Assembly (NCBI RefSeq): GCF_018263905.1
Contig: NZ_JAAFZU010000001.1
Coordinates: 422,228 to 486,227, forward strand
Direction: 5' to 3'
DNA: 64,000 bases
Source of the DNA: Loktanella sp. SALINAS62
GTDB lineage: Bacteria; Pseudomonadota; Alphaproteobacteria; Rhodobacterales; Rhodobacteraceae
The translations under genes were made by a program, and so were the position numbers. Within the stretch, counting starts at the first letter, position 1. Each line of letters opens with the position of its first letter. Below, piece after piece: positions 17,031 through 40,979 of this stretch. A model generated the notes under the pieces. That model had not been told where the DNA came from. It saw only the letters and a program-made list of their open reading frames with translations, and did not search any database.

Positions 17031-20000
17031 CTATTCGGCTGGCACGGCGTCAGGCGGGACCGCCCGTTTGGCACGTTTTTCACCCAGCATCAGCATGGCC
17101 GGTGTCACGATCAATGTCAGAACCGTTGCAACCACCAAGCCACCGGCGATGGCGGACGACAGTTCGGTCCACCACTGCGTTGACGGTGCACCAAAGACGA
17201 TTTCGCGGGTGAAAAAGTTAAGGTTCACCCCGATCACCATCGGCATCAGACCCAACGCCGTGGTGATGGACGTCAGGAACACCGGGCGAAGACGCTGCGC
17301 GCCCGTCCGCAAAGCTGCTTCCATCGGGGATTGGCCGATACGTTTGAGGTCATTGTAGGTGTCGATCAACACGATGTTGTTGTTCACCACGATCCCCGCC
17401 AGCGCGATCACACCGATCCCGCCCATGACGACCCCGAATGGACGCCCCGTTATCAACAGGCCCAACAGAACCCCCGCCACCGAAAAGACAATCGCGCTCA
17501 TCACGACGAAGGCCTGAAAGAAGTTGTTGAACTGGATCACAAGGATCACGAACATCAGGAAAATCGCGGTCAGGAACGCCGTTGCCAGAAACGCCATGCT
17601 TTCGGCCTGATCCTCTGCTTCGCCGGCAAAAGAAAACTCCACGCCTTCGGGCAATTCCGCGTCATTCAAGGCCGCCGTCAGTTCGGTCACCTGATCGTTC
17701 ACCAGCACGCCGGGGCCGACGTTGGCTTCGATCGTGGTCACGCGCTTTTCGTCGATCCGGCGGATAATGCCGGTGCGGTCGGACGGCGCAAAAGTGACAA
17801 AGTTCGAAATCGGCACCAGTCCCGATGTGGTCGGAACGCGCAGGCTGGCCAGTTCCGACAGGGAACGTTCTTCGCGTGGGAAACGCACCCGAATGTCCAA
17901 CGATCCGTCCACGTCCTCTGGCCGGTAATCGGCGACCGTGATTCCCTGGGTCAAAAGCTGAACCGCCTGTCCCAACAGGCTGACATCGGCACCAAAGCGC
18001 GCCGCCTCTGCCCGGTTCACCAAAATCGACACCTCGACCCCCGGCACGGGGCGTGTATCGGTGACGTCGGTAAAGCCACCGATCCGGTCCATGATATCGC
18101 GGATCTGCTGCACGGCTGCGGCCTGCGTATCCGGATTGCGCGCCGTCACCTGCAGGTTGACCGGCTTACCGGCAGTCGGTCCGCCGCTTTCGGTCTGCAC
18201 CTGCACGTCGATCCCGGCGATGTCAGACACGCTTTCGCGGATGTCCTCGCCGATTTCGGCGGCGGTGCGTCGGGTATCCCACGGCGTCAGATCCAGTTGC
18301 AGCGTGCCAATGGTTTCTTCGTCGCCCTGCCCCGCGCTCATCATGGAACGGGCGTAGATGCTTGCGATCTCATCGTATTCGACCAGACGGTCTTCGACGG
18401 CGCGGACCAATGCATCACGTTCAAAGATGGAAAAGTTATCGCGCGCGCGGACTTGCACCTGCATGAAATCGGGTTCGACGGACGGAAAGAAAGTGATCCC
18501 CTTGCCAAATTGACCATACAGGCCAAAGCCACCCAGCAGCAGCGCCACGGCCAGCAGGACGGTCGCACCGGGGCGCAGGATGGCCCATTGCAGGAACCGA
18601 ACGTAGGCGCCGGTAAAACCGCCCATGTCGCGCGGATCACCGAATTCTGCCGCGTGAAGTGCGGCTTTGGCCCGTGCGGATTGTGGCTGGCGTTTGCCGA
18701 TCAGGCCGCCCACAACAGGAATGAAAATCAAAGCCATGAACAGCGATGCCGTCAGGGTCAGAATCACCGTGATGGGCAGAAATTTCATGAATTGCCCGAC
18801 CAGCCCGCTCCAGAACAGAAGCGGGAAGAACACGCAAAGCGTGGTCGCCGTCGACGCGATGATGGGCCATGCCATACGCTTTGCCGCATAGCTGTAGGCC
18901 TCTTTCGGCGATGCGCCTTCCTGTAACTTGCGGTCGGCCAACTCGGTCGTCACGATTGCACCATCGACCAGCATTCCGACTACTAGGATCAGCGAAAACA
19001 GGACCACGATGTTCATCGTGTAGCCCAGCGTCCACAGGGCGATGACACCGACCAGAAACGCGCCCGGAATGGACAGACCCACAAGGATCGATGACCGCAG
19101 GCCCAGTGCCAAGACGATGACGATCATGACCAGAATGACCGCGGCGATGACGTTGGCTTCCAGATCGCTGAGCAGATCCTCGACCTGTTTGGATTGATCC
19201 TGCAAATACGTCACTTCGACGCTGTCGGGCCAATCGACGCGCAGGTCTTCGACCACAGCCTTGGCGGCGGCGACCGTTTCGATGATGTTGGCGCCCGACC
19301 GCTTCTTGATTTCCAGCGCCAGCGCAGGCTGACCGTTGATCCGCGCGAACGAGTCCGGATCTTCGAACGTGCGGCGGATCGTGGCGACATCGCCAAAGGT
19401 CACGACGGCATCGTCGCGCACCTTGATCGGCATCGCCATCACGTCATCAAGATCCTGAATAAGCCCGGGCACCTTGAGCACGATCCGGCCAGACCCCGTT
19501 TCGATTGCCCCCGCAGCGACCAGCAGATTGTTACGCTGGATCTGCCCGATCAATTCGTCGAACGACAGATTGTAGGTCTGGAATACCGTGGGGTCGATCA
19601 GCACTTCTAGAAATTCGAACCGCTGGCCGCCGATATCGACTTCCAGCACGCCTTCGAGACCTTCAAGCTCTTCCTGCAGGTTTTCGGCCAGATCGTTCAG
19701 CGTCCGTTCCGGCACCGGGCCGGACAGGATCGCGGTGATGATCGGAAACAGCGCGGTGTTGATTTCAGTGATGGTAATTTCATAGGCATCGTCGGGCAGT
19801 TCGTTTTGCGCCCGGTCAGCCGCGACGCGCACCTTATCCAGCGCTTCCTGATTGTCGCCGCCGGGCGAAAATTCCAGCTGCACACTGGCAAATCCTTCGG
19901 CCGCTTCGGAATTCATGCTGTCCAGCCCGGTGATGGATGCGAATTCAGTCTCCATCGGTTCCAGCAGCAGGCGTTCGGCGTCGGACGGGCTGATTCCGTC

Positions 20001-20156
20001 CAGCCCGGTCGAAACGTAGAACAGGGGCAGCGGCACCTCTGGGTTCGCTTCTTTTGGAATCGCGGTATAGGCATAGGCGCCGACGGCCATGATGACCATC
20101 AATGTCATGACCACGACACGGGATCGGGAAAATGCGGCGTCAATCAAACCGTTCAT
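17031..20156 (-). CDS. RND-family efflux pump permease
   Basis: A 1041-residue inner-membrane proton-driven exporter with the AcrB/MexB-like duplicated layout: TM1 near residue 12-30, a periplasmic loop, TM2-6 at about 335-480, TM7 near 530, a second periplasmic loop and TM8-12 at about 860-1020. Recognisable segments are LFSLILVVGMLVDGAIVTTE (TM4, proton-relay acidic residue) and GIGVIALAGIVVNNNIVLID. The start overlaps the upstream adaptor stop by four bases. No outer-membrane TolC-type partner is in the window, so it would use one encoded elsewhere. The substrate is unknown; the MarR-type regulator suggests toxic-compound export. Confidence 0.92.
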   Translation of the reverse strand: MNGLIDAAFSRSRVVVMTLMVIMAVGAYAYTAIPKEANPEVPLPLFYVSTGLDGISPSDAERLLLEPMETEFASITGLDSMNSEAAEGFASVQLEFSPGGDNQEALDKVRVAADRAQNELPDDAYEITITEINTALFPIITAILSGPVPERTLNDLAENLQEELEGLEGVLEVDIGGQRFEFLEVLIDPTVFQTYNLSFDELIGQIQRNNLLVAAGAIETGSGRIVLKVPGLIQDLDDVMAMPIKVRDDAVVTFGDVATIRRTFEDPDSFARINGQPALALEIKKRSGANIIETVAAAKAVVEDLRVDWPDSVEVTYLQDQSKQVEDLLSDLEANVIAAVILVMIVIVLALGLRSSILVGLSIPGAFLVGVIALWTLGYTMNIVVLFSLILVVGMLVDGAIVTTELADRKLQEGASPKEAYSYAAKRMAWPIIASTATTLCVFFPLLFWSGLVGQFMKFLPITVILTLTASLFMALIFIPVVGGLIGKRQPQSARAKAALHAAEFGDPRDMGGFTGAYVRFLQWAILRPGATVLLAVALLLGGFGLYGQFGKGITFFPSVEPDFMQVQVRARDNFSIFERDALVRAVEDRLVEYDEIASIYARSMMSAGQGDEETIGTLQLDLTPWDTRRTAAEIGEDIRESVSDIAGIDVQVQTESGGPTAGKPVNLQVTARNPDTQAAAVQQIRDIMDRIGGFTDVTDTRPVPGVEVSILVNRAEAARFGADVSLLGQAVQLLTQGITVADYRPEDVDGSLDIRVRFPREERSLSELASLRVPTTSGLVPISNFVTFAPSDRTGIIRRIDEKRVTTIEANVGPGVLVNDQVTELTAALNDAELPEGVEFSFAGEAEDQAESMAFLATAFLTAIFLMFVILVIQFNNFFQAFVVMSAIVFSVAGVLLGLLITGRPFGVVMGGIGVIALAGIVVNNNIVLIDTYNDLKRIGQSPMEAALRTGAQRLRPVFLTSITTALGLMPMVIGVNLNFFTREIVFGAPSTQWWTELSSAIAGGLVVATVLTLIVTPAMLMLGEKRAKRAVPPDAVPAE

Positions 20157-21334
20157 TGCGCGTCATCCTGCAAGCTGGGTGCCACGGTTTCGCCTGCGTT
20201 CACAAAGCCCTGTCCGATGGTGATGACGTTGGCGGTGTCAGGCAATCCTGCGACCCACAGCCCGTCGACCTGCGCCTTGACGATTTCGATGGGATAAAAA
20301 GCGACCGTGTCGTCGTCCGCCACGGTTTTGACGCCAAGGGTGCCGTCGGTGTCCAATGACACGATGGATGCGGGCAGGAAATGCGCCGTTGTTTCCCCCG
20401 TGGGGATCACCACCTCTGCCGAAATGCCGGCGGGGATCGCACCGTCATCGTTCGGCACCTCTATTTCGACCAGAAACGTACGTGTTTCACTGGCAGCCGA
20501 TGTGCCGACAAAACTGACGATGCCTTCGCGCTCTTCGCCGGTGATGAATCGGACATTGGCGGTTTGTCCGACAGACAAACGGGTCAGCGATTGCTGCGGC
20601 ACCTGAATGGATACGGTTAGCGGGGTAATATCGACCAGCCGTCCGATGTCGGCCCCGGCAGACACAAAGACGCCTTCGTCCAGATCCAGCGTTTCGATGC
20701 GCCCATCGAACGGGGCTGTAATCGTCAGGGACAGCGCCGCCTGACTGGCGGCGGTCACCTGCGCCTGTGCGGCAGCAAGCTGTGCGCGCGCCTGCGTCAC
20801 ACGGTCGGTCGTGGCGACACCACGATCCAGTAATTGTTCCGCATTCTGCAATTCACGTTCGGCAATTGCCAGGTCTTCGGCGGCACGGTTGATATCCGCC
20901 TCGTTATTTGTCGAATCCAGCCGTGCAATCACCGTTCCTGCGGTGACGGTCTGGCCTTTTTCCACCAGCACTTGCGCCACGTCACCAGATGTTTCGGCGC
21001 GCAGCATCGTATCACGGTCAGGCAGCGCCTGACCTTCTGCCTGATAAAACTGGGTGACAGTTTCTGCCGACGACGGGGCCACGGCCACAGCCACAGGCGC
21101 AATCGATTCGCGCACCGGGGCTTCTGTAGGTGGTGCAGCGGACAGAAAAAATCCACTGCCCATCCAGCCAACGATGGCCAACACCAGCGCACCCGCAATC
21201 CAGGATGACCGGGACGCGCCCTTGTCATCGCGGAATTCCAGCGGCTTGCGGCCATCGGTGTTGGCGGACGGGACCGGCACCAGGGTCGGCGCATTCGATC
21301 CGGGCACATTGGTCTGTTCTACATATTGATTCAT
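20153..21334 (-). CDS. RND periplasmic adaptor (HlyD/MFP family)
   Basis: A 393-residue membrane fusion protein that links the RND pump to the outer membrane. A cytosolic N-terminal stretch of about 45 residues precedes one transmembrane anchor (WIAGALVLAIVGWMGSGFFL). After that come the lipoyl/barrel-sandwich segments (RAETSGDVAQVLVEKGQTVT and APFDGRIETLDLDEGVFVSA) flanking an alpha-helical hairpin, and a beta-barrel. The N-terminal cytosolic stretch is longer than in AcrA, and no lipobox cysteine is visible. It lies three bases after the MarR-type gene and overlaps the permease start by ATGA, so it is one operon. Confidence 0.92.
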   Translation of the reverse strand: MNQYVEQTNVPGSNAPTLVPVPSANTDGRKPLEFRDDKGASRSSWIAGALVLAIVGWMGSGFFLSAAPPTEAPVRESIAPVAVAVAPSSAETVTQFYQAEGQALPDRDTMLRAETSGDVAQVLVEKGQTVTAGTVIARLDSTNNEADINRAAEDLAIAERELQNAEQLLDRGVATTDRVTQARAQLAAAQAQVTAASQAALSLTITAPFDGRIETLDLDEGVFVSAGADIGRLVDITPLTVSIQVPQQSLTRLSVGQTANVRFITGEEREGIVSFVGTSAASETRTFLVEIEVPNDDGAIPAGISAEVVIPTGETTAHFLPASIVSLDTDGTLGVKTVADDDTVAFYPIEIVKAQVDGLWVAGLPDTANVITIGQGFVNAGETVAPSLQDDAQ

Positions 21335-21337
21335 GGT

Positions 21338-21841
21338 CTATTCCCCGGGCTTAACAGGCTGTTGCCCGACATATGTTTCTTCGGATGCGTTCAACTGGGC
21401 CAACGCCACCCCCATCGCGGCGTCGATAGAGGCATAGAACTGCGCGTGTGCGCGCAGACGGCCGATTGCATCAGATTCTTCAGGTAGCAGGTTGATGGTC
21501 TTTGCGATTTCGTCGCGGCGGCTGCGTTGGCGTTGTTGGATCCCCGCCAGCATGGTCGCATAGGGGTTATCGGCCAGCTGAAAAAAATCCTGACGCACCC
21601 CCGGTTCGGTCGTGCGTTTGACCAGACCCCGTTCTTCAAGAAGACGGATGCTGCTGCTGATGCTGCCCCGACTGACCTGAAGCTGCGTCGCCAGATCGCC
21701 GAACGCGACACGCTCTCCGTCAAAGATCAGCATGCCCAGAACACGTCCGGCAATGCGCGGCAGACCTTCTGCCTGAAGGCTTAGCCCGGTCTGTTCGATA
21801 AATCGGGTCCGTAAGGCGTCTGTCGTGTGTGTATCTGGCAA
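21338..21841 (-). CDS. MarR/GbsR-type regulator of the RND operon, TTG start
   Basis: A 167-residue winged-helix repressor. The HTH lies at about residues 35-85: LPRIAGRVLGMLIFDGERVA, then FGDLATQLQVSRGSISSSIR, then LLEERGLVKRTTEPGVRQDF. A helical C-terminal dimerisation region follows. I place the start at the TTG of 21841, because AGGAG sits six bases upstream; the only in-frame ATG (21886) lacks a ribosome site and adds a low-complexity leader. The gene is first in the efflux operon, and a 20-base inverted repeat lies 56 bases upstream, so autorepression relieved by a ligand is likely (inference). Confidence 0.82.
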   Translation of the reverse strand: MPDTHTTDALRTRFIEQTGLSLQAEGLPRIAGRVLGMLIFDGERVAFGDLATQLQVSRGSISSSIRLLEERGLVKRTTEPGVRQDFFQLADNPYATMLAGIQQRQRSRRDEIAKTINLLPEESDAIGRLRAHAQFYASIDAAMGVALAQLNASEETYVGQQPVKPGE

Positions 21842-21847
21842 GCGCTG

Positions 21848-21852
21848 CTCCT
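21848..21852 (-). promoter_or_regulatory. ribosome binding site deciding a TTG start
   Basis: AGGAG on the minus strand, six bases before the TTG at 21841. It is the reason for choosing a non-ATG start for the MarR-type regulator. Confidence 0.6.
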
Positions 21853-21896
21853 GTGGCTGGTCACCACATGGGTCAGCCCACGGCAATTCGCAAGTC

Positions 21897-22023: not shown

Positions 22024-22908
22024 TCAGCCCAGACGTTCGGACGCGTAACCGCCGGGGCTGGCAGGGAACACCACCGTTTTATTGCCGTTCAGGAAAACCC
22101 GGTTGTGGATATGTGCGTGGATGGCACGGGCCAGCACCTGCGCTTCGACATCACGGCCCAGCGTGACATAGTCAGCCGAACTTTGCGCATGGGTGACGCG
22201 GCAGGTGTCCTGTTCGATGATCGGGCCTTCGTCCAGATCGGCAGTCACGTAATGTGCGGTCGCCCCGATCAGTTTCACGCCACGTTCAAACGCCTGTTTA
22301 TAGGGGTTTGCCCCCTTGAAGCTGGGCAGGAATGAATGGTGGATGTTGATGATCCGGCCCGACATCTTCTGGCACATTTGGTCCGACAGAATCTGCATGT
22401 AGCGCGCAAGAACGATCAGGTCGGCACCTGTTTCCTCGACGATGTCCATGATCTCTGCTTCGGCCTTGGGTTTGTTCTGGGCCGTGACCTTGATGCAGTA
22501 GAATGGGATGTCGTGATTCACGACGACCTTTTGATAATCGGTGTGGTTCGAAATAACGGCAACGATATCGATCGGCAACGCACCGATGCGCCAACGATAC
22601 AAAAGGTCATTCAGGCAGTGCCCGAAGCGCGACACCATCACGACAACCTTCATCCGGACCGCTTCATCATGGATGAACCAGTCCAGACCCAGTGGCTTCG
22701 CAACTTCGACGAAGTCTTCGCGCATCGTGTCCAGCGTGATGGAATCCGGCGTGGTAAAGCTGACGCGGGTGAAAAACTTGCCGGTGTCGGGGTCATCGAA
22801 CTGGGCACTGTCGGTAATGTTGCAACCATTGTCGGCCAGAAAAGTCGAGATGGCTGACACAATACCAATCTGCGACTCGCAGGCGGCTGTTAGTGCGTAT
22901 TTCGGCAT
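22024..22908 (-). CDS. purU: formyltetrahydrofolate deformylase
   Basis: Hydrolyses 10-formyl-tetrahydrofolate to formate and tetrahydrofolate. It has 294 residues. An N-terminal ACT domain (about 1-85, YALTAACESQIGIVSAISTF) is followed by the formyltransferase-like catalytic domain. Catalytic motifs are IIVLARYMQILS-type (LIVLARYMQILSDQM), INIHHSFLPSFKGANPYKQA (His in HHSFLPSF) and HYVTADLDEGPIIEQD (Asp). It is the last gene of the mocD-mocE-panB-like-purU operon, 39 bases after the PanB-like gene. That context suggests it handles C1 units released by the oxygenase, rather than purine synthesis (inference). Confidence 0.93.
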   Translation of the reverse strand: MPKYALTAACESQIGIVSAISTFLADNGCNITDSAQFDDPDTGKFFTRVSFTTPDSITLDTMREDFVEVAKPLGLDWFIHDEAVRMKVVVMVSRFGHCLNDLLYRWRIGALPIDIVAVISNHTDYQKVVVNHDIPFYCIKVTAQNKPKAEAEIMDIVEETGADLIVLARYMQILSDQMCQKMSGRIINIHHSFLPSFKGANPYKQAFERGVKLIGATAHYVTADLDEGPIIEQDTCRVTHAQSSADYVTLGRDVEAQVLARAIHAHIHNRVFLNGNKTVVFPASPGGYASERLG

Positions 22909-22947
22909 GGTGCTCTTTCAGTAGGATCGGTGGCGGTAAAGTGGACC

Positions 22948-23751
22948 TTAGCGATCGGCCAAGGCGGCGACGAATGCAGCCAGTTCCTGATCCGGGATCG
23001 TCACGCTGTGTTCCGGCCCCGGATAGGACTGACGGTCCACATCTGCCTTAAATTCTGCAAACGCCGCAATCCGTTCGCGCTGCAATCGGGCGAATTCCGA
23101 CCTAAAGTCACGGTAGCTTTTGCCATGACGCGGTTTGTGGCCCTCGGTCGCGCCCAACACGTCGCTGGCGAACAGATATTGCGCGTCCGCATATGGACCC
23201 GCACCCATCCCCAAAAGCACAAGGGTCGTGCGTTTTGAAATCTCGGCGGCGACACGGTCCGGCACGACTTCCAGTTCGACGCCGAAACAGCCGATCCTTT
23301 CCAGCGCCTGCACGTGGTCCATGACTGCAAGTGCGCTCTGGGCGGTTTTGCCAACAGCCTTGAATCCGCCTGTCCATGTCGCTTTGGATGGAATCAATCC
23401 GACATGGCTGACCACGGGAATCCCGTCGTCGGCCAGCGCCTTGATCGTGGTCATGGACGACGCGCAGTAGACGCAATCGCCGCCCGTCTGCATCGCACGG
23501 TGGGCCGCGCGCTGATAATCCTCTGCCGTGACAAGCTGACCGTAAAGCAATCCGACCTGCACAAAACAGTCGCCTGCCGCCACGCGCATGTCGGGCGTCC
23601 ACAGCGGGTCGATGATTGACAGCATGTCGATGCCTGCGGCCGCTGCGGCAGCCGCTTCCTCTGGTGTTTCGACATACAGCATCGACAGCTGACGCGTGCC
23701 TTTCAGCGCGCGGATGTCCGCGACGGTCGGGCGGTTGTGATATAGGGTCAT
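22948..23751 (-). CDS. PanB-like protein with altered active site
   Basis: A 267-residue TIM-barrel protein of the ketopantoate hydroxymethyltransferase (PanB) / PEP mutase superfamily. Family-like segments are GIPVVSHVGLIPSKATWTGG, ELEVVPDRVAAEIS (retained Glu) and LLGMGAGPYADAQYLFASDV. Positions that hold metal or substrate in PanB differ: the DSLG region reads IIDPLW, the ADLPF region reads VQVGLLYG, and the VKIEGG region reads CVYCASS, so the usual Asp, Lys and Glu are missing. It is therefore unlikely to make ketopantoate. It lies six bases after mocE and before purU, so a C1-related role in the same pathway is more likely (inference). Confidence 0.7.
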   Translation of the reverse strand: MTLYHNRPTVADIRALKGTRQLSMLYVETPEEAAAAAAAGIDMLSIIDPLWTPDMRVAAGDCFVQVGLLYGQLVTAEDYQRAAHRAMQTGGDCVYCASSMTTIKALADDGIPVVSHVGLIPSKATWTGGFKAVGKTAQSALAVMDHVQALERIGCFGVELEVVPDRVAAEISKRTTLVLLGMGAGPYADAQYLFASDVLGATEGHKPRHGKSYRDFRSEFARLQRERIAAFAEFKADVDRQSYPGPEHSVTIPDQELAAFVAALADR

Positions 23752-23757
23752 GCCGGA

Positions 23758-24069
23758 TCAGACTTGTATCAATACGCGGTCACCATCCAACCGGACCGGA
23801 TAGGTGCCAAGGTTCACGCAGACGGGCGCGCGTTTCGCGGCCCCGGTGCGATAATCGAACTGGCCGTTATGTTTGGGGCATTCGATGGTGTAATCCATCA
23901 CCAGCCCATCCGACAGATGCACATTTTCATGGGTGCACAGCCCGTCGGTGCAAAAGAATTCGTCGTCGGGGCTGCGGTAGATGGCAAAGGTCCGCCCGTC
24001 GTGGTCAAAACGGATCAGGTCTTCTTCCTCGATGTCGTCCTTGGCGCAGGCGTCGATCCAGTCGGCCAT
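23758..24069 (-). CDS. mocE: MocE-type Rieske [2Fe-2S] ferredoxin
   Basis: A 103-residue soluble Rieske ferredoxin. The cluster ligands are C45 and H47 in LCTHENVHL and C64 and H67 in ECPKHNGQFD. The stretch THENVHLSDGLVMDYTIECP is typical of the MocE group, which supplies electrons to an oxygenase. It sits 21 bases after the desaturase-type MocD gene, and a reductase (MocF) is not in the window. In rhizobial rhizopine catabolism MocD, MocE and MocF demethylate 3-O-methyl-scyllo-inosamine. The inositol genes next door make a related reaction plausible here. Confidence 0.85.
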   Translation of the reverse strand: MADWIDACAKDDIEEEDLIRFDHDGRTFAIYRSPDDEFFCTDGLCTHENVHLSDGLVMDYTIECPKHNGQFDYRTGAAKRAPVCVNLGTYPVRLDGDRVLIQV

Positions 24070-24090
24070 GTTAGTCTCCTCCGGTTTAGG

Positions 24091-25194
24091 TTATTCTGCG
24101 GGCACTGCCGTCGTCACGTTCTCGGCCATGCCCAGTGCCGTCCGGTGCAGGTCAACCCGGTAGGGCGCTGCGCCATGTGGCAGATCGCGTTGCAGAAAAT
24201 CGTCGTGATAGCGCAACTGGTGGCGCAGGATCGGCAACACCTCGCAATAGGCGTGCCACATCGACGGGTTCGGCGCGGGCAGGTCGTGTTTGATACGCTG
24301 ATGCAGGTCGGGCAGCCGGTGGTAGGGGACCATCGGGAACATATGGTGTTCGCAGTGATAGTTCATGTTCCAGTAAATGAACCGCGACACCGGGTTCATA
24401 TAGACAGTCCGACTGTTCAGTCGGTGGTCAATCACGTTTTCAGCCAGTCCTGCATGTTGCAGCAGGCCCGTCAGCACATGATGCCAAGCGCCATACAGAC
24501 GCGGCAGCCCGATCACCATCAGCGGCAGGATCGATCCGGTTGCGACCGCAAGTGTGATGACGGCAGCATAGATCACGACCCAGATACGGGCGACCCGCAC
24601 GACCTTGGGCTGTTCGCTTTCGGGAATATAACTCGCTTCTTCGGCGTCCAGACGGCCGGTGGCGTTCACCAGCATCCGTTTCCACCCGCTGAACGCATCA
24701 AGGATGCCGAAAAAGTTCAGCGCGATCCGGAACAGCGCGGGCGGGCGCATCGCGACGATTTCGGGATCGCGTCCGACGATGACGGTATCGGTGTGGTGGC
24801 GCGCGTGGCCCCAGCGCCATGTGACCGGGTTGCGGACCATGCAGAACGACGCAATCTGATACAGCGCATTGTTCATCCACGGCGTCTTGAACGCCGTGCC
24901 GTGGCCGCATTCGTGCCAGCGACTGTCCATTGCGGACCCGTACAGCACGCCGTAGCCCAACCAGAAGGGAACCGACCACCACGTCGGCCACAGGGCGATC
25001 CCGATCCCGGCAAGGATGATCATACTGCCGAACAGGATGATCGCGTCGCGGATTGCCGGGCCATCCTTGCGCTGCATCAGCGCCTTCATGTCCTTGCGCG
25101 GGATGTCGGTCAGATACCAATCGGCAGCGGACAGGCCGGTTTCGACGGCTTTGCGGGCGTTGGCGCCCAACAGGGAATAATCGCGTTTGTTCAT
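24091..25194 (-). CDS. mocD: MocD-type membrane di-iron oxygenase (fatty-acid desaturase fold)
   Basis: A 367-residue membrane di-iron enzyme. The three histidine boxes are HECGH (94-98), HARHH (130-134) and HCEHH (280-284), with extra histidines at 238-239. Hydrophobic segments lie at about 48-90 and 205-235. ATG 25194 (MNKRDYSLLG) is chosen because GGAG is six bases upstream; two earlier in-frame ATGs have weaker sites. The pairing with a Rieske ferredoxin points to hydroxylation or demethylation rather than lipid desaturation. It is first in the operon with mocE, panB-like and purU, and divergent from a LacI regulator. The substrate is inferred to be a methylated inositol or inosamine. Confidence 0.8.
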   Translation of the reverse strand: MNKRDYSLLGANARKAVETGLSAADWYLTDIPRKDMKALMQRKDGPAIRDAIILFGSMIILAGIGIALWPTWWSVPFWLGYGVLYGSAMDSRWHECGHGTAFKTPWMNNALYQIASFCMVRNPVTWRWGHARHHTDTVIVGRDPEIVAMRPPALFRIALNFFGILDAFSGWKRMLVNATGRLDAEEASYIPESEQPKVVRVARIWVVIYAAVITLAVATGSILPLMVIGLPRLYGAWHHVLTGLLQHAGLAENVIDHRLNSRTVYMNPVSRFIYWNMNYHCEHHMFPMVPYHRLPDLHQRIKHDLPAPNPSMWHAYCEVLPILRHQLRYHDDFLQRDLPHGAAPYRVDLHRTALGMAENVTTAVPAE

Positions 25195-25303
25195 CGTCAG
25201 CTCCGTCATCAACAGATGATCAGGGCTTAACAGCAACAGAACGGCAGGTCTTGCGCGCCGCGTAAATTCACATCAAATTAAATCACCGACACCCCTGATA
25301 ATT

Positions 25304-25317
25304 GATGTAATTACATC
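25304..25317. promoter_or_regulatory. LacI-type operator in the mocD / lacI divergent region
   Basis: GATGTAATTACATC is a perfect 14-base palindrome 11 bases before the LacI start codon. A related half, AATTCACATCAA at 25265-25276 (complement TTGATGTGAATT), repeats the TTGATGTnAATT pattern nearer to mocD. Both fall in the 133-base gap between the divergent genes, as expected for shared repression. Confidence 0.65.
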
Positions 25318-25327
25318 GGAACACCGC

Positions 25328-26359
25328 ATGACAAAACGTCCGACGATCAAGGATTTGGCCCGCGCCGCAGGGGTTGGCGTGGCAACGGTGGATCGTGCCC
25401 TGAACGGGCGGTCGCATGTCCGGCCCGATACGCTGGACCGCGTGCGACTGGCGGCAGAACAGATCGGCTACCCCACCCGTGGGCTGGCCCTTCGGCAACA
25501 GGCGGCGGACCGTCCGCAGGTCCGGTTCGGGTTCGTGCTGCATAAGGGCGCGCAGGAATTCTATCGGAACTTCGCGCTAGCCCTGCAACGCGCGGTGGAC
25601 GCGCGCACCGACATCAGGGGGCGCGCTGTCATCCGGTTCGCGGCGTCGCAGTCCCCCGGCGATTTCGCGCACGAGATTGCCGATGTCGCATCCCAGACCG
25701 ACGCCATAGCCACATCCGCGATCAATCATCCGACCCTGTCAGATCTGGTGGGCGACCTGACGGCCAACGGCACGCCGGTCTTTGCCCTGCTCAATGATTT
25801 CGCCCAAGGCATCCGCCAGAATTATATGGGTCTGAACAACGTCAAGGTCGGACGTCTGGCCGCATGGATGATGACCACCCAGATCCGCGACCCCGGCAAG
25901 CTGGCGGTGTTTGTCGGTGGCAATCGCTGGCACGGTCACCTGCTGCGTGAAACCGGGTTCCAAAGCTACCTGCGCGAATGTGCGCCCGACTTTTCCATGC
26001 TGGATACTGTCGTTAATCTGGAGACCCGGCAGGTCACATACGAAGCGACGCTTGACCTGCTGGACCGTCAACCCGACCTGCGCGGCATCTACGTCGCGGG
26101 CGGCGGGATGGAGGGCGCGATCGCCGCCATTCGCGAACAGCGACCGCCCGGCAAGATCGCGTTGATCGTCAACGAGCTAACCGACGACAGCCGCAAGGCG
26201 CTGGTGGATCGCTACGCCACCATGGTGATCGCGACCCCACTGGATGATCTGTGCCGCATCCTGATCCAATCGATGATCGACGCCGTGCGCGACGGCACAA
26301 ATACAGGGGGCAGCCAGCATTTTCTGACGCCGCAGCTATATCTGCCAGAATCGTTCTAG
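25328..26359 (+). CDS. LacI-family regulator (copy 1)
   Basis: A 343-residue LacI-type repressor. The N-terminal HTH reads TIKDLARAAGVGVATVDRAL, with NGRSHVRPDTLDRV as hinge helix, followed by a periplasmic-binding-type sensor domain. It is divergent from mocD and convergent with iolB. It is a paralogue of the LacI gene at 38971-40002: both share FVLxK-type openings, GGNRWHGH, NLETRQVTYEATLDL and DLRGIYVAGGGMEGAIAA. The shared sensor core suggests closely related effectors, presumably an inositol or inosose derivative (inference). Its TAG stop overlaps the iolB stop in CTAG. Confidence 0.9.
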   Translation: MTKRPTIKDLARAAGVGVATVDRALNGRSHVRPDTLDRVRLAAEQIGYPTRGLALRQQAADRPQVRFGFVLHKGAQEFYRNFALALQRAVDARTDIRGRAVIRFAASQSPGDFAHEIADVASQTDAIATSAINHPTLSDLVGDLTANGTPVFALLNDFAQGIRQNYMGLNNVKVGRLAAWMMTTQIRDPGKLAVFVGGNRWHGHLLRETGFQSYLRECAPDFSMLDTVVNLETRQVTYEATLDLLDRQPDLRGIYVAGGGMEGAIAAIREQRPPGKIALIVNELTDDSRKALVDRYATMVIATPLDDLCRILIQSMIDAVRDGTNTGGSQHFLTPQLYLPESF

Positions 26360-27168
26360 GCGTCGCGATCCATGATCCACTGCACCTCTGGCGCGGCCAC
26401 GAAACGCCATTTTCGCAGCGGCCCGGCCATGACGTTCAGGTAATACATCTCGAACCCATAGGGTGCGCCGCAGGGGTGATGGCCGCGCGGCACGCAGACC
26501 ACGTCATGATCCTTGACCGCCATGGTTTCATCCAGCAGGCCGTCGTCGGTATAGACCCGCTGCACACCGAAACCACTGGCCGGATTCAGACGGTGGTAAT
26601 AGGTTTCTTCCAGATAGGTGATGCGCGGAAAATCATCTTCGTCATGCCGGTGACTGGGATAGGACGACCAGTGACCCGCGGGGGTGAACACCTCTGTCAC
26701 CAGCAGGCGGTCGGCGACGGGGCGGTCTTCCATTGCGATGTTGTTGATGTGGCGGGTGTTGGTACCGCGTCCGCGTTCTGTCAGCGTAATGCCGTCGGGG
26801 CCAAGGCGCTGGGCGGTGTAACCGCCATCCGCATCGGCGGGGGCGGAACAGACGGCGATGACGCAATCGGTTTGCGTGACCGCGTCCCAACCGGAATCGC
26901 GGGGCACATACAGGCAATGCGGCGGGGTCTTTTCGAACACATCCATCCGGTCGCCCAAAACGCCCCAATCGTGTCCGGCGGCGGTGATCGCGGCCTTGCC
27001 TTCGACGATCACAAGGATGACTTCGCGGTCCAGCGTCGGTTCGTGCGCGCTGTCGCCGGCGCGCAGCCGATACAGTGAGAACCCAACGTAACGCCAGCCT
27101 GCGCTTTCGGGCGTGATCTGATGCACCTTGCCGCGCGTGCCGAAGGGCTTTTTCAAAAGATCAGCCAT
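26356..27168 (-). CDS. iolB: 5-deoxy-glucuronate isomerase
   Basis: Converts 5-deoxy-D-glucuronate, the IolD product, to 2-deoxy-5-keto-D-gluconate. The 270-residue length is normal. Cupin-type family motifs are WRYVGFSLYRLRAGDSAHEP, SSYPSHRHDEDDFPRITYLE (metal His residues), ETYYHRLNPASGFGVQRVYT and VPRGHHPCGAPYGFEMYYLN. ATG 27168 has AGGAG seven bases upstream and overlaps the end of the preceding small gene by eight bases. It is the last gene of the minus-strand iol operon. Confidence 0.95.
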   Translation of the reverse strand: MADLLKKPFGTRGKVHQITPESAGWRYVGFSLYRLRAGDSAHEPTLDREVILVIVEGKAAITAAGHDWGVLGDRMDVFEKTPPHCLYVPRDSGWDAVTQTDCVIAVCSAPADADGGYTAQRLGPDGITLTERGRGTNTRHINNIAMEDRPVADRLLVTEVFTPAGHWSSYPSHRHDEDDFPRITYLEETYYHRLNPASGFGVQRVYTDDGLLDETMAVKDHDVVCVPRGHHPCGAPYGFEMYYLNVMAGPLRKWRFVAAPEVQWIMDRDA

Positions 27169-27379
27169 CGTCAGGCTCCTTGTAGTTGTCGGGATCGAAG
27201 ACCACGAAGAATTCATAGGTGCACCACGCAGCGGCCGCCGCAGAAACCGCCGCCCACAGGAAATTTCCGGTCGCCAGTTCGAACACCGTCCAGCCCCACA
27301 GGACGATGCAAACCGTCATCCGTCGTCCGCGCGGCGCAAAGAATGGCGCGCGGACATTGATTACGTCTTTCAGGGCCAT
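27161..27379 (-). CDS. small two-helix membrane protein in the iol operon, unrecognised
   Basis: A 72-residue frame that overlaps the stop of the dioxygenase gene by ten bases and the start of iolB by eight bases, a packing that supports real translation. A basic start (APFFAPRGRR) is followed by two hydrophobic segments, MTVCIVLWGWTVFELATGNF and LWAAVSAAAAAWCTYEFFVV, and a charged tail FDPDNYKEPDDG. I do not recognise the family. A role in the membrane part of inositol use is possible, but nothing in the sequence shows it. Confidence 0.6.
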   Translation of the reverse strand: MALKDVINVRAPFFAPRGRRMTVCIVLWGWTVFELATGNFLWAAVSAAAAAWCTYEFFVVFDPDNYKEPDDG

Positions 27380-28539
27380 CGTCTGTGATCCATGTCCTTT
27401 AATGCCGTATCGAACCTATCAGCATCCCAGCGCTCTGCCAGTGCCTGCCGCATCAGATCGGCCTGCGACGGCGGTGCGTTGCCGCCCACGGGTGGATCGG
27501 TGTCCAGATTGGTCGGAAACGGATAACCTTCGGCGCTAGCCGCGATCACGGCGTCAGCCTGCGCCGCCGTCAGATCGGTGTCGGCCAGAATCGGGAACAG
27601 CTCCCGGACCATCGCACCCCGGTCGACGGATTCCATCGCCCGGCCAAAGGCGGACGAGACCTGCAGCAGGTTTACCATGCGCGCAATGTCCGCGCTGCGG
27701 TTATCGCCAGCCCCATGAAACAGCGCCGGGTTAAAGAACACAGCATCGCCTTTGGCCAACGGCAGTTGGATGCAGCGGTCCTCGAACATCGCGCGATGAT
27801 CGGGATCGTGGAACGCGATATAGCCTGCATCGTAAAGCTGCGAGAACGGCAGCAGTTTCGTCGGACCGCTTTCCACCGGCATGTCGCAATGGGCGATGGC
27901 CCCCTGCAAGGTCAGCGCCGCCGTCAGATCATGGGCATGGACGGGATAACGGGCGGCCTGTTGTGCCGTCTGAAAACCCAGATGATAATCACGGTGCGCC
28001 TGCTGCGCCTTGCCACCCGGCCGCACCTGATTGACCTGCGCGGTCATCTGATACGCCGGGCCCAACCATGCCTCTGCCACGGCAGCGATGGCGGTGTTGC
28101 CGTAGTAGCGGGCGAACCCGGCGGCGTCGTGCAGACAATGTTTCTGTAGCGAATTCCAGATCCGATCATTCGCACCGGATGCCGCGAAATGGTCGCCCTT
28201 ACCCGCCCCGTCATGGCGTTCGTCAACAATGATCGCGTTGAAAACTCCTGTCGCGCGGTCGATGGGTGCTGTGTCGGCATAGGCCGCTTTTAACACGATC
28301 ACCCCTGCGGTGTTGCGCAACACATCGGCCCATTCTGCCATCAGCACCCGTCGTTTTTGCGGATCGTCCAGCGCGGGGGCCAGTGCGCCCATATCATAGA
28401 TCGGTACATTCTTTTCGATGCTGGCAGCCTGCGGCACCGATGCAGGGTCCAGGGTGCGGTCGATCAGGACGCGAAAGGCGTCGATATCGCCATCATCCGC
28501 TGTGTAGTAGCCCGCCGATTTGTTCCATTCGTCCCGCAT
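27370..28539 (-). CDS. phytanoyl-CoA dioxygenase-family Fe(II)/2-oxoglutarate oxygenase
   Basis: A 389-residue PhyH-type non-heme iron oxygenase. The iron triad is visible as H182-x-D184 in QQAHRDYHLGF and H275 in FFNPALFHGAGDNRS, with Arg281 or Arg287 as candidates for the 2-oxoglutarate salt bridge. ATG 28539 has GGGAG seven bases upstream. It lies between iolE and iolB in a polycistronic iol operon, so it probably acts on an inositol derivative rather than on acyl-CoA. Hydroxylation or oxidative demethylation of a modified inositol is possible (inference). It is not part of the textbook iol pathway. Confidence 0.85.
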   Translation of the reverse strand: MRDEWNKSAGYYTADDGDIDAFRVLIDRTLDPASVPQAASIEKNVPIYDMGALAPALDDPQKRRVLMAEWADVLRNTAGVIVLKAAYADTAPIDRATGVFNAIIVDERHDGAGKGDHFAASGANDRIWNSLQKHCLHDAAGFARYYGNTAIAAVAEAWLGPAYQMTAQVNQVRPGGKAQQAHRDYHLGFQTAQQAARYPVHAHDLTAALTLQGAIAHCDMPVESGPTKLLPFSQLYDAGYIAFHDPDHRAMFEDRCIQLPLAKGDAVFFNPALFHGAGDNRSADIARMVNLLQVSSAFGRAMESVDRGAMVRELFPILADTDLTAAQADAVIAASAEGYPFPTNLDTDPPVGGNAPPSQADLMRQALAERWDADRFDTALKDMDHRRWP

Positions 28540-28554
28540 GCCGTGCTCCCTATG

Positions 28555-29463
28555 TTATGTTTTGTAAACCTTCAGTCCCGCCCGGTCGCAGACCGCATGG
28601 ATGTGGTCAAAACCGATTTTAGAGAATGCAAAAGGCGGTGCCTTGGCCGGGTCCTGTTCGGCCTCGACCACGATCCATCCGTCGTAACCCATCGTCTTGA
28701 GTTCGTTCGTGATGGCCTGAAAATCGATGCAGCCGTCGGGGTCGCCGGGGACGGAAAAGACGCCTTCGCGCACGCCATCCAGAAAGCTGCGGTCGCCGTC
28801 ACGGACCCATGACAGCGTATCGGGCCGCACGTCCTTGAAATGCACATGGTGCACCCGGTCGCCCCATTTTTGCAGCACCGCCAGCGGATCGGCGCCCGCC
28901 ATCAGCAGGTGGCCGGTATCATACAGCAGCGTGACCTCAGGACCGGACCCGTCCATCAGCCAGTCGATGTCGTCCGCGTCTTCGATCATGCTGCCCATGT
29001 GGTGATGATAGGACAGGGTCATACCGTCGTCTTTGACCCGCTTGGCCAGTTCGGTCAGTTTGGCGGCATAGGCGGTCACGTCGGCGCGGGACAGTTTGGG
29101 CCGCTGGCTGACAGGCGTGTTCACCATGCCCTGTACGGTATTGGAACATTCCGCATAGACGATGCAGGGCGCGTTCAGGGCGGTGAACTGCGCGACCTGC
29201 TGGCGGATGGCGGCATATTCTTCATCCACCGACGTCACGTGCAGATTGCCCGAACACCAACCACCGCACAGCGCGACGCCGTAACGGTCAAGGTATTCGC
29301 GCAACCCTTCGGTATCGGCAGGCATCCGGCGACCGCGTTCGACACCCTGATATCCAATCGCCCCTGCGTCTTCCATCGCGCCTTCGGTGGTGAAATCCGC
29401 CGTCAGATCGGGCAGGTCGTCGTTCTGCCACGCGATCAGCGAGATACCTATTTTGACAGCCAT
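28555..29463 (-). CDS. iolE: myo-inosose-2 dehydratase
   Basis: Dehydrates 2-keto-myo-inositol to the trihydroxycyclohexane dione. A TIM-barrel of 302 residues with MAVKIGISLIAWQNDDLPDL, YGVALCGGWCSGNLHVTSVD, MTLSYHHHMGSMIEDADDID, LLYDTGHLLMAGADPLAVL and VHHVHFKDVRPDTLSWVRDG; the Glu, Asp, His and Glu metal set of the family fits these blocks. The ATG at 29463 shares its A with the iolD stop (TGATG). The stop lies 15 bases before the dioxygenase gene. Confidence 0.94.
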   Translation of the reverse strand: MAVKIGISLIAWQNDDLPDLTADFTTEGAMEDAGAIGYQGVERGRRMPADTEGLREYLDRYGVALCGGWCSGNLHVTSVDEEYAAIRQQVAQFTALNAPCIVYAECSNTVQGMVNTPVSQRPKLSRADVTAYAAKLTELAKRVKDDGMTLSYHHHMGSMIEDADDIDWLMDGSGPEVTLLYDTGHLLMAGADPLAVLQKWGDRVHHVHFKDVRPDTLSWVRDGDRSFLDGVREGVFSVPGDPDGCIDFQAITNELKTMGYDGWIVVEAEQDPAKAPPFAFSKIGFDHIHAVCDRAGLKVYKT

Positions 29464-33208: not shown

Positions 33209-34213
33209 TCAACCCGTGATTTCCGACAGTTTGACAACGCGGCCTTCGGCCACCGACTGCAGCGCCGCATCCGCCAGTGCAAGCGCCATCAGGCCATCGT
33301 GCCCGGTGGTCACCGTCGCGGTGCCGTTGGTCACCGCATCGACAAAAGACGCAATTTCGGCGGCATAGGCAGCAGTGTAGCGCGACATGAAAAAGTTCAG
33401 CAGCGGCGGTCTGGTATAGCCATCGGCGTTGGCGATTTCGATGTTGGCTTCGCGGTGGTTTTCGGCACGGACCGACCCTTTGGAACCGTGCACTTCGATC
33501 CTTTGATCGTAGCCATAGGTCGCGCGCCGGGTGTTGTTGATCGTGCATTGGCGGCCCGATGCGGTGGTCATAATCACGTTCAGGCTGTCGTAATCGCCCA
33601 GCTTTGCAATTTCGGGATCGGTCAGGACGGATGCGGCGGCCTGCACGCTATCGACCTCTTCACCCAGCAACCAACGGGCCACGTCGAAATCGTGGATCGT
33701 CATGTCGCGGAATATCCCGCCAGAACGTTTGATATAGTCGGCAGGCGGCGCACCGGGATCGCGGCTGATCAGCGTGACCATTTCCACATCACCGATCTTG
33801 CCGTCGTCGATGGCCTGCTTGAGCGCTTGGAAATCAGGATCAAAGCGGCGTTGAAAGCCGACCATCAGGGTGCCGTTTTCCGCCGCGACGGTTTTCAGGC
33901 AATCCTTGACCCGCGCCACTGACAGATCGACCGGCTTTTCACAAAACACCGCCTTGCCCGCGCGGACGAATTGTTCAATCAGGTCGGCGTGCGTGTCGGT
34001 GGGCGTGCAGATGACGACCGCGTCAACATCGTCGGATGCCGCAATTTCATCAATCGTGCGGATGTCGCAGCCATAGGCGTCGCGCACCGATACTGCCGCC
34101 GCGTTCACGGGGTCGGCGATCGCGGTCAGGGTCGCGCCGTCCACCGATGCAATGGCGCGGGCGTGGACCTGACCGATCCGTCCGGCCCCCAGCACCCCAA
34201 ATCTTACCGTCAT
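33209..34213 (-). CDS. iolG: inositol 2-dehydrogenase (Gfo/Idh/MocA family)
   Basis: NAD-dependent oxidation of myo-inositol to 2-keto-myo-inositol, the first step of the pathway. It has 334 residues. The Rossmann motif VLGAGRIGQVHARAIASVDG is at the N-terminus, the catalytic EKP segment in KAVFCEKPVDLSV, and GGIFRDMTIHDFDVARWLLG carries the conserved Asp and His. ATG 34213 has AGGAG seven bases upstream. It lies between an SDR gene and iolC on the same strand. Confidence 0.93.
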   Translation of the reverse strand: MTVRFGVLGAGRIGQVHARAIASVDGATLTAIADPVNAAAVSVRDAYGCDIRTIDEIAASDDVDAVVICTPTDTHADLIEQFVRAGKAVFCEKPVDLSVARVKDCLKTVAAENGTLMVGFQRRFDPDFQALKQAIDDGKIGDVEMVTLISRDPGAPPADYIKRSGGIFRDMTIHDFDVARWLLGEEVDSVQAAASVLTDPEIAKLGDYDSLNVIMTTASGRQCTINNTRRATYGYDQRIEVHGSKGSVRAENHREANIEIANADGYTRPPLLNFFMSRYTAAYAAEIASFVDAVTNGTATVTTGHDGLMALALADAALQSVAEGRVVKLSEITG

Positions 34214-35783: not shown

Positions 35784-35796
35784 TTTTGGCACTCCC

Positions 35797-37922: not shown

Positions 37923-38001
37923 TGTGTTCCTCCCGTTAGTGGTGCCCGGCCACACCGTTCTCCCGCCGGGGCCCCCGTTAGGGGACCATCACCCCTGCAC
38001 C

Positions 38002-38817: not shown

Positions 38818-38925
38818 GGCTTCCTCCCCAGAAAACCGGACCACCCGCGATGGGTGGGTCATCTATTTCTGGGCAAACCTTGCGCCTGTGGATCAGATTC
38901 GGTCAATACAAAGGCTATCATTTCA

Positions 38926-38939: not shown

Positions 38940-38970
38940 CGTTATGACTGCCAGAAACGACGCATTTACG

Positions 38971-40002: not shown

Positions 40003-40021
40003 GCCGCGCACCCCATGATGC

Positions 40022-40054
40022 TTTCACGTCATCCTAGGCATCATTTCCCGTCAT
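40022..40054. promoter_or_regulatory. two tandem LacI half-sites upstream of LacI copy 2
   Basis: TTTCACGTCAT (40022-40032) and TTTCCCGTCAT (40044-40054) are direct repeats with a 22-base period, about two helical turns, in the 74-base gap between the LacI gene and the upstream IolE-like gene. The same element recurs downstream of the LacI gene. Operator function is inferred from recurrence and position. Confidence 0.55.
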
Positions 40055-40970: not shown

Positions 40971-40979
40971 GGTCTGTCC

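Follow-up and report, generated by a model that had tools for sequence, protein, structure and literature searches.

What might a membrane oxygenase, a Rieske ferredoxin, a relative of the pantothenate enzyme PanB and a formyltetrahydrofolate deformylase be doing together beside genes for inositol catabolism? This combination occurs in Loktanella sp. SALINAS62, in a stretch of 64,000 nucleotides (here called the window). A sequence-only reading of it had proposed that the operon demethylates O-methyl inositols or inosamines, the C1 unit passing through folate and leaving as formate. Pinitol and other methylated inositols are widespread solutes of plants. A search of literature titles and abstracts revealed no set of bacterial genes that demethylates them, a role for which the module can be put forward as a testable candidate.

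Four genes divergent from a LacI gene beside an inositol locus

The operon, its regulator and the site between them are as follows.

24091-25194, minus strand: MocD-like membrane di-iron oxygenase of the FA_desaturase family, a proposed O-demethylating monooxygenase (PF00487, 5e-39)
23758-24069, minus strand: MocE-family Rieske [2Fe-2S] ferredoxin, the proposed electron donor (TIGR02377, 176.6 bits against a cut-off of 136.15; Rieske, 4.2e-19)
22948-23751, minus strand: PanB-like protein (PanBL), a proposed tetrahydrofolate-dependent C1 acceptor enzyme (Pantoate_transf, PF02548, 6.3e-38, partial)
22024-22908, minus strand: PurU, formyltetrahydrofolate deformylase (TIGR00655, 329.7 bits against a cut-off of 285.95; Formyl_trans_N, 1.5e-43)
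25328-26359, plus strand: LacI-family regulator, divergent from the operon (PF00356, 4.3e-12; PF13407, 5.7e-28)
25303-25318, plus strand: operator-like palindrome between LacI and mocD, containing the perfect 14-base GATGTAATTACATC (motif search)

Gene coordinates and profile matches agree exactly with the operon as it had been described earlier, including the gaps of 21, 6 and 39 bases between mocD, mocE, panBL and purU, and the divergent LacI gene does indeed lie beside iolB, iolE, iolD, iolC and iolG, as judged from profile matches and strands. The oxygenase carries the histidine boxes HECGH, HARHH and HCEHH that had been read in it, which together with the family profile place it among the membrane di-iron oxygenases; the histidines are invariant across 36 aligned sequences (the window's included). 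With its structural model (pLDDT 86), Foldseek returned two chains of the chloroplast FtsHi motor complex and then AlkB-AlkG (E 0.01). Lipid desaturation is an unlikely role, given the ferredoxin, PanBL and sugar-transport surroundings. No mocF reductase gene was found in the window or its operon, the best match in the genome being 41% identical and on a different contig.

The neighbouring inositol locus comprises the following genes.

26356-27216, minus strand: iolB, 5-deoxy-glucuronate isomerase (TIGR04378, 326.1 bits)
27370-28539, minus strand: PhyH-family Fe/2-oxoglutarate dioxygenase, within the iol run (PF05721, 1.9e-29)
28555-29466, minus strand: iolE (TIGR04379, 369.2 bits)
29463-31409, minus strand: iolD (TIGR04377, 899.9 bits)
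31292-33205, minus strand: iolC-type kinase/aldolase fusion (NF047869, 685.5 bits)
33209-34213, minus strand: iolG, inositol 2-dehydrogenase (TIGR04380, 419.6 bits)
34233-35000, minus strand: SDR oxidoreductase (PF13561, 1.1e-43)
35004-36882, minus strand: sugar-type ABC ATPase (35004-35861) and permease (35797-36882); best matches RbsA- and MglC-type, below cut-offs
36978-37955, minus strand: periplasmic sugar-binding protein (PF13407, 4.1e-50)
38002-38862, minus strand: AP_endonuc_2 TIM barrel of sugar epimerase/isomerase type (PF01261, 1.2e-22)
38971-40011, minus strand: second LacI-family regulator (PF00356, 2e-13)
40077-42083, minus strand: second TIM barrel (40077-40970; PF01261, 2.9e-32) and Gfo/Idh/MocA dehydrogenase (40980-42083; PF01408, 3.4e-23)

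The PhyH-family gene between iolB and iolE had gone unremarked in the sequence-only reading. Since the LacI gene is oriented towards iolB, the moc-like operon is, in the window, a transcription unit separate from the iol run.

A PanB relative that has lost the PanB metal site

The window PanBL scores 94.3 bits against a curated panB cut-off of 207.55, and aligns only to columns 76-258 of the 259 in the Pantoate_transf profile. Its model (pLDDT 93.3) nevertheless has the PanB fold (Foldseek 3vav, E 4.7e-19). PanB has the metal ligands D45, D84 and E114, and lysine 112. PanBL has G, Y and A at the positions aligned to D84, K112 and E114, none of the 124 proteins in our PanBL set has D, K or E there, and some 20 residues around the GDS motif, including the segment around D45, are deleted. 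PanBL still shares with PanB the fold, the C-terminal two thirds and the counterparts of H136 and E181 (the latter glutamate being retained in 142 of 142 PanB-family proteins), whereas the other motif residues, the GDS segment and the genomic neighbours all differ. Quick trees also set PanBL apart from PanB, and by its sequence it is a distinct clade devoid of the PanB metal site. A role as a pantothenate enzyme can be rejected, because the same genome encodes a full-length PanB elsewhere and because the motif residues are lost. The literature as partly available to us yielded neither an assay nor a ligand or growth result for PanBL, nor any PanB paralogue tied to demethylation by an oxygenase.

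Recurrence of the core with oxygenases

Is the combination peculiar to this genome? The 124 PanBL came from a family sample, a phylum sample, named loci, plasmid loci of our own choosing and the window, and were compared with 15 canonical PanB; neighbouring genes of relatives were called with a codon-usage ORF caller. With the plasmid loci and window left out, a demethylase-type oxygenase lay within 7 kb of 92 of 114 PanBL, as against 0 of 15 canonical PanB. MocD- or FA_hydroxylase-type oxygenases accounted for 35/40 PanBL in the family sample, 16/20 in the phylum sample, 40/54 at named loci and 9/9 at the hand-chosen plasmid loci (all within 7 kb). Among 151 genomes of one family, MocD was present in 34 and PanBL in 34, with both in 29 (Fisher p 6e-21). 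The core genes are thus associated far beyond chance, and the absence of co-occurrence elsewhere, which the sequence-only reading had named as a refutation, does not apply to mocD, mocE and PanBL. The core turns up again in genomes of Rhodobacteraceae and Rhizobiaceae type and in marine isolates, and is frequently accompanied by a LacI gene, genes for sugar ABC transport and iolG-like dehydrogenases. Sinorhizobium meliloti ml28 has the order LacI-mocD-mocE-mocF-panBL on pSymB.

The association is not universal. No recognised oxygenase was found within 7 kb of 14/54 named, 5/40 family-sample and 3/20 phylum-sample PanBL, although MocE was present at 10 of the 14 named loci, and four of the 14 (L040, L042, L045 and L050) have an FA_hydroxylase-type gene further away. 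Such cases rule out any rule that every non-canonical PanB adjoins an oxygenase, as does L171, where a C/K/Q/E PanB variant has none of the modelled oxygenases within its 19 kb. Nor is PanBL an obligatory partner of MocDEF: 11 of the 39 MocD loci of one family have no copy within 5 kb, and it is also missing from plasmid loci L127 and L128. At six of the 11, LacI and MocB-like genes for sugar ABC transport are nevertheless present, so that MocDEF does not require PanBL in order to act.

The link to inositol genes and a shared operator

Within 10 kb, the 124 PanBL have an iolG- or Gfo-like dehydrogenase in 71 cases, sugar ABC genes in 63 and LacI in 69, the figures for the 15 canonical PanB being 1, 0 and 0. 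The expected linkage to iol genes themselves held only in part. iolD lies within 25 kb of 6 of 30 PanBL (0.41 expected, p 5e-6, window left out), but few loci have iolB, iolC, iolD or iolE within about 10 kb (15 of 53 in the named set, 2 of 42 in the family sample), and no iolBCDE genes occur within 9 kb of the rhizobial plasmid copies L059, L125 and L129 (L059 also being without sugar-transport context of this kind). The link is therefore significant and non-random, but a minority arrangement. In L033 and L047, transport genes, mocD, mocE, PanBL, iolG, purU, iolC, iolD, iolE and iolB lie on a single strand; transport genes, mocD, mocE, PanBL and iol genes do likewise in L044.

The palindrome upstream of mocD matches a motif that occurs once in the window (0.07 expected) and at LacI/MocD/TIM-barrel intergenic sites in some relatives. 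In five of them (L009, L019, L020, L022 and L124) it precedes mocD as well as the TIM-barrel gene on the transporter side, although with three mismatches allowed only 12 of 44 LacI-mocD intergenic regions (the window's included) contain it.

A possible route for the methyl carbon

The operon may be the demethylation module of a catabolic locus for inositol derivatives, a reading in which our confidence is evenly balanced. In outline, a MocB-like ABC transporter would import an O-methylated inositol of the pinitol or ononitol type; MocD, receiving electrons from MocE and an unlinked reductase, would convert the O-methyl group by hydroxylation into an unstable O-CH2OH; and PanBL would hand the oxidised methyl carbon (as hemiacetal or nascent formaldehyde) on to tetrahydrofolate (H4F) and so form 5,10-methylene-H4F. 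FolD, encoded elsewhere in the genome, would oxidize this to 10-formyl-H4F, which PurU would split into formate and free H4F, while the demethylated inositol would enter the Iol pathway. LacI would govern the operon through the palindromic operator.

For the folate branch proposed from the sequence, the genome has both FolD and PurU available, the PurU of the window is the only match above the family cut-off in the whole genome, and the order mocD-mocE-mocF-panBL-purU-folD occurs in a relative. A distant PanBL in a Clostridiales MAG lies beside formate-H4F ligase, cyclodeaminase, FolD and 5-formyl-H4F cyclo-ligase. However, PurU or FolD is within 10 kb of only 15 of 124 PanBL (0 of 15 canonical PanB), and a glutathione-dependent formaldehyde dehydrogenase is also encoded in the genome. 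The same demethylation might proceed with a PanBL that does not use folate, but hydrolyses the hemiacetal, joins formaldehyde to another acceptor or works as an aldolase further along the breakdown of the inositol; PurU would then see to ordinary folate balance. The sparse linkage is consistent with this, as are the missing metal-site residues and GDS segment (from which the acceptor should differ from a 2-keto acid) and the Foldseek matches of PanBL, which after PanB chains are mostly to proteins of the isocitrate-lyase/PEP-mutase superfamily. We nevertheless consider it rather unlikely: where folate genes are present they are those that the folate route calls for, and they stand in operon order, and the conserved glutamate at E181 also speaks against it.

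A more tentative generalization suggests itself, which we think somewhat likelier to fail than to hold: that PanBL represents a novel class of enzymes, descended from PanB but free of its metal site, which moves oxidised methyl carbon to H4F for several unrelated oxygenase families (desaturase, FA_hydroxylase and perhaps Rieske), so that formaldehyde is never free, and that a second, separate offshoot of PanB does the same for VanA-type O-demethylases. Proteins that at present bear the annotation of a vitamin B5 enzyme would then move to one-carbon capture, and PanBL, if it does couple oxygenases to folate, would show how aerobic bacteria that demethylate their substrates can keep formaldehyde from becoming free.

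Other substrates

Laminitol and mytilitol are inositols of the C-methyl type. With such a substrate, MocDE would hydroxylate the C-methyl group, a dehydrogenase would form the neighbouring ketone and PanBL would remove the hydroxymethyl group to H4F in a reversal of the PanB reaction. This comes nearest to genuine PanB chemistry, and suits the 71 PanBL near iolG- or Gfo-like dehydrogenases and the existence of marine hosts; but MocD-MocE loci with MocB-like ABC genes and no PanBL would be dead ends, and rhizobial orthologues together with a pinitol-rich exudate (below) favour O-methyl cyclitols, so that we give it little credence. It is equally improbable that MocDE oxidises some other target (an N-methyl or hydroxymethyl group, or a ring carbon) and that the inositol locus is merely a neighbour. 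The division of the window into two transcription units by LacI, the rarity of adjacent iolBCDE and the variety of oxygenase families among PanBL partners would all accord with that; the excess of iolD, the single-strand loci and the common operator motif oppose it. Degradation of homarine or other N-methyl aromatics was discarded, as the partly available literature described no gene set that matched and the gene surroundings are of sugar/cyclitol type.

An O-methyl inositol seems the better candidate, and a small hint from expression points the same way. In Rhizobium mesoamericanum, mocDEF homologues rise 1.53-2.11x and a mocB-type ABC operon 4-4.7x with Mimosa exudate, of which pinitol is the most concentrated component, according to the available part of PMC5789663, whose authors interpret the induction as rhizopine catabolism.

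Comparison with known systems

A close parallel is with MocDEF of the rhizopine moc locus (mocCABRDEF) of S. meliloti L5-30 and R. leguminosarum, a likeness judged from family profiles. A desaturase-type membrane oxygenase and a MocE-family ferredoxin share one operon in an inositol-type context; mocDEF participate in rhizopine catabolism (PMC10107442, as far as available); and the sugar-binding protein of the window has a counterpart in L057 (71% identity) annotated as rhizopine-binding. Might the locus then serve catabolism of rhizopine itself (3-O-methyl-scyllo-inosamine)? This seems decidedly unlikely, because a LacI protein takes the place of MocR, no MocR-type protein was found among the genes annotated from 17031 to 43519, and neither the operon nor the rest of the window includes mocF. 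In addition, PanBL and PurU are part of the operon, the available portions of PMC10107442 and PMC6668481 name no PanB or PurU for the moc genes, and marine isolates carry the module too. Of the two substrate types originally suggested, O-methyl inositols therefore fit better than the inosamine.

N-methyl amine oxidase systems couple demethylation to methylene-H4F with FolD and/or PurU, as proposed here, but there the oxidase itself makes methylene-H4F, whereas the window has an oxygenase for which PanBL is the proposed coupler. VanA-type O-demethylases (PF19112) resemble the proposed system in oxidative O-demethylation (by family name), but are Rieske oxygenases and not membrane di-iron enzymes. 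Three VanA-type genes (L105-L107) overlap a differently altered PanB paralogue, which, unlike PanBL, retains the lysine and the GDS segment.

The operon and its inositol locus

From sequence alone, a membrane di-iron oxygenase (MocD), a Rieske ferredoxin (MocE), a PanB-like protein (PanBL) and PurU had been placed in one operon, and it had been proposed that MocD and MocE demethylate O-methyl inositols or inosamines, with the C1 unit passing to tetrahydrofolate (H4F) and being released as formate by PurU. The four genes are where that reading put them, with coordinates, strand, gaps and the family of each confirmed, the last by family searches:

24091-25194, minus strand, MocD-like oxygenase
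23758-24069, minus strand, MocE ferredoxin
22948-23751, minus strand, PanBL
22024-22908, minus strand, PurU

In this order the gaps are 21, 6 and 39 bases; the ATG at 25194 is the preferred mocD start, as the N-termini of many homologues show similar KRDYS-type residues. A LacI gene (25328-26359), divergent from the operon, is directed towards iolB, and therefore the moc-like operon and the iol run are separate units, within one locus of about 20 kb. The iol run comprises iolB, a PhyH-family gene, iolE, iolD, an iolC fusion, iolG and an SDR gene, followed on the transport side by genes for an ABC ATPase and permease, a binding protein, a TIM barrel, a second LacI protein, another TIM barrel and a Gfo/Idh protein. 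The PhyH-family Fe/2-oxoglutarate dioxygenase (27370-28539, between iolB and iolE), with relatives of 54-69% identity in loci fetched from other genomes (L010, L011, L016, L017, L023, L026 and L033), might serve as another demethylase or hydroxylase. An RND efflux pump, an adaptor and a MarR-family regulator are encoded at 17031-21886, immediately downstream of the operon and on the same strand.

PanBL as a separate branch of the PanB family

The AlphaFold model of PanBL (37 aligned sequences) is a PanB-type barrel (pLDDT 93.3), for which the top Foldseek matches are solved PanB chains (3vav, 4.7e-19; 1m3u, 9.4e-18), then mostly isocitrate-lyase/PEP-mutase proteins. Unlike PanB, it lacks about 20 residues round PanB's GDS motif. 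When residues were aligned, via 1m3u, to D84, K112, E114 and E181 of Escherichia coli PanB, the 142 PanB-family proteins of more than 200 residues fell into 15 canonical (D, K, E, E), three S/K/Q/E and 124 PanBL; in no PanBL do the first three positions hold D, K or E, and the last glutamate is kept in all 142. Two quick trees were built, of 46 and 82 rows (41 and 71 of them PanBL), with many weak forks and, for the larger, a long-branch flag; PanBL lies on one side of a branch with SH-aLRT 97, apart from both canonical PanB and the S/K/Q/E group.

That S/K/Q/E group (D84 to S, E114 to Q) makes an observation in its own right: in all three loci the gene overlaps, by four bases, a VanA-type O-demethylase gene with Rieske and VanA_C domains.

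L105:7880-9816, S/K/Q/E PanB and VanA-type gene
L106:8061-10015, S/K/Q/E PanB and VanA-type gene
L107:8053-9989, S/K/Q/E PanB and VanA-type gene

For a fourth, related variant, C/K/Q/E (L171), no modelled oxygenase lies nearby; among the matches listed for the phylum sample this variant alone reaches 50% identity, the others listed being at 46% or below.

A frequent but dispensable companion of oxygenases

Within 7 kb, the distance over which neighbours were taken, a membrane di-iron oxygenase accompanies PanBL in the window, in 40 of 54 cases from named genomes (searched for with patterns taken from the window's own PanBL, and weighted towards close relatives), 35/40 from the family sample, 16/20 from the phylum sample (17/20 once Rieske oxygenases are included) and 9/9 from hand-chosen plasmid loci, as against 0/15 for canonical PanB, drawn from the 149-genome search and the genome itself with none from the phylum sample; two of the 15 lie on contigs no longer than about 8 kb. 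A MocE gene on the same strand is found within 1.5 kb of 91/124 PanBL and of no canonical PanB (0/15).

The named-genome scan gave 53 PanBL loci; gene calling or length removed L029, L054 and L055 from this set. For the family sample, 42 stretches were fetched out of 69 places in 149 genomes, leaving out five more full-length PanBL places and two fragments. L071, L091 and L096 were dropped through gene calling or length; PanBL has an oxygenase gene nearby in L071 and L091 but not in L096. The plasmid collection holds 647 records matching PanBL (637 below 60% identity; 278 with at least 80% query coverage). The 18 controls, three of which turned out to be S/K/Q/E variants, were the lower-scoring PanB matches of the 149-genome search (all except that of G109) and the genome's own PanB.

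Among the 151 genomes covered from a second family (centred on G219; limits of 1e-80 and 1e-40), MocD and PanBL each occur in 34 and both in 29 (Fisher 6e-21), and PanBL is within 5 kb at 28/39 MocD places. In the middle 12 kb of the other 11, MocE is kept in eight and LacI in seven; LacI together with sugar ABC genes that include a MocB-like binding protein is present in six, of which two also have iolG. Two plasmid loci retrieved for MocD (L127, L128) carry mocDEF-like genes without PanBL; in L127 (7986-12666, a Paenibacillus plasmid) an aldo/keto reductase gene and a creatininase-family gene stand where PanBL would. PanBL thus often accompanies MocD but is dispensable, which argues against a part in the demethylation step itself and fits a C1-capture role replaceable by other formaldehyde routes.

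On the larger tree, the type of the nearest oxygenase changes at least 10 times over 59 labelled tips (46 MocD, 10 FA_hydroxylase, three Rieske): the companion persists while the oxygenase family is swapped. At L102:7593-12756, tandem PanBL genes lie between genes for a ring-hydroxylating Rieske oxygenase, an M24/creatinase-type peptidase and an FA_hydroxylase-type protein, possibly reflecting an N-methyl substrate.

A possible folate link

PurU or FolD is encoded within 10 kb of 15/124 PanBL (window included), as against 0/15 canonical PanB. The genome has no PurU above the family cut-off other than that of the window; it encodes FolD elsewhere, and also a glutathione-dependent formaldehyde dehydrogenase. 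H4F-coupled demethylation with PurU or FolD has been described before, in the pAO1 purU-mabO-folD operon (PMC3891541) and in glyA-soxBDAG-purU (PMC3691474). In a Clostridiales MAG (L056:2889-14778), three distant PanBL (28-33% identity) surround genes for formate-H4F ligase, a cyclodeaminase domain, FolD and 5-formyl-H4F cyclo-ligase. The models used detected no oxygenase there; this single locus ties the PanBL family to folate by another route.

Inositol and sugar context

In many loci LacI is divergent from mocD-mocE-(mocF)-panBL, some of them including purU or purU-folD. Many PanBL loci adjoin a MocB-like ABC transporter, a TIM barrel and iolG or more iol genes; others do not, the module adjoining polysaccharide genes on Sinorhizobium meliloti pSymB and a TIM-barrel gene alone in Rhizobium etli and R. 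leguminosarum. In L033 one strand carries ABC genes, iolG-like, mocD, mocE, mocF, panBL, two iolG-like genes, purU, iolC, iolD, iolE, PhyH and iolB, with three more genes interspersed.

PanBL (at least 45% identity) occurs in 23 of the 149 family genomes, IolD in 72 and both in 18 (one-sided Fisher 0.0016, own genome included). Window excluded, 6/30 PanBL places have iolD within 25 kb, where random placement in 3.9 Mb would give 0.41 (p 5e-6). The co-occurrence expected by the sequence-only reading held for the mocD, mocE and PanBL core, whereas iolB/C/D/E-type genes (at least 45% identity) accompany only a minority (15/53 named, 2/42 family, 0/20 phylum and 0/18 control loci); being near few sampled loci yet above expectation, the association with iol genes is real without being general. 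More broadly, the setting is sugar or cyclitol metabolism: within 10 kb, PanBL and canonical PanB differ in iolG- or Gfo-like dehydrogenases (71/124 against 1/15), sugar ABC genes (63/124 against 0/15) and LacI (69/124 against 0/15). The operon locus is real and conserved, in good part as first guessed.

Operator-like sites

A 16-base site at 25303-25318 contains a perfect 14-base palindrome. In about 2.5 Mb of fetched loci the motif occurs, at up to three mismatches, at 29 sites, of which 27 are intergenic, by LacI, MocD, TIM-barrel or FA_hydroxylase genes, and two intragenic. It precedes both mocD and the transport-side TIM-barrel gene in five loci, and is found in only 12/44 LacI-mocD intergenic regions, window included. 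On the window's transporter side, near the second LacI gene, a scan with no chance control gave a TGACG-type near-match at 38958-38973 and another operator-like site at 40016-40031, related to, yet distinct from, the mocD site; other near-matches fall within genes. In rhizobia, the mocD operon is described as divergent from genes for FixV homologues of LacI type, with an inositol-derived ligand guessed (PMC3538637).

Comparison with the rhizopine system

Rhizopine catabolism is described as involving mocDEF, mocR, mocBA and mocC (PMC10107442); the window, in contrast, has LacI, with no mocF and no MocR among the genes annotated (17031-43519). Copies of the module also occur in rhizobia. Mimosa exudate supplying 145 uM pinitol and 0.73 uM inositol is reported to induce mocDEF homologues and a mocB-type ABC operon in Rhizobium mesoamericanum, a response that the authors read as rhizopine catabolism (PMC5789663). 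Given the annotated gene content of the window, the rhizobial copies and this induction by a pinitol-bearing exudate, we favour O-methyl inositols as the probable substrate. The candidate demethylation module is of the MocDE type in a novel form, and its PanB-like enzyme poses the interesting question.
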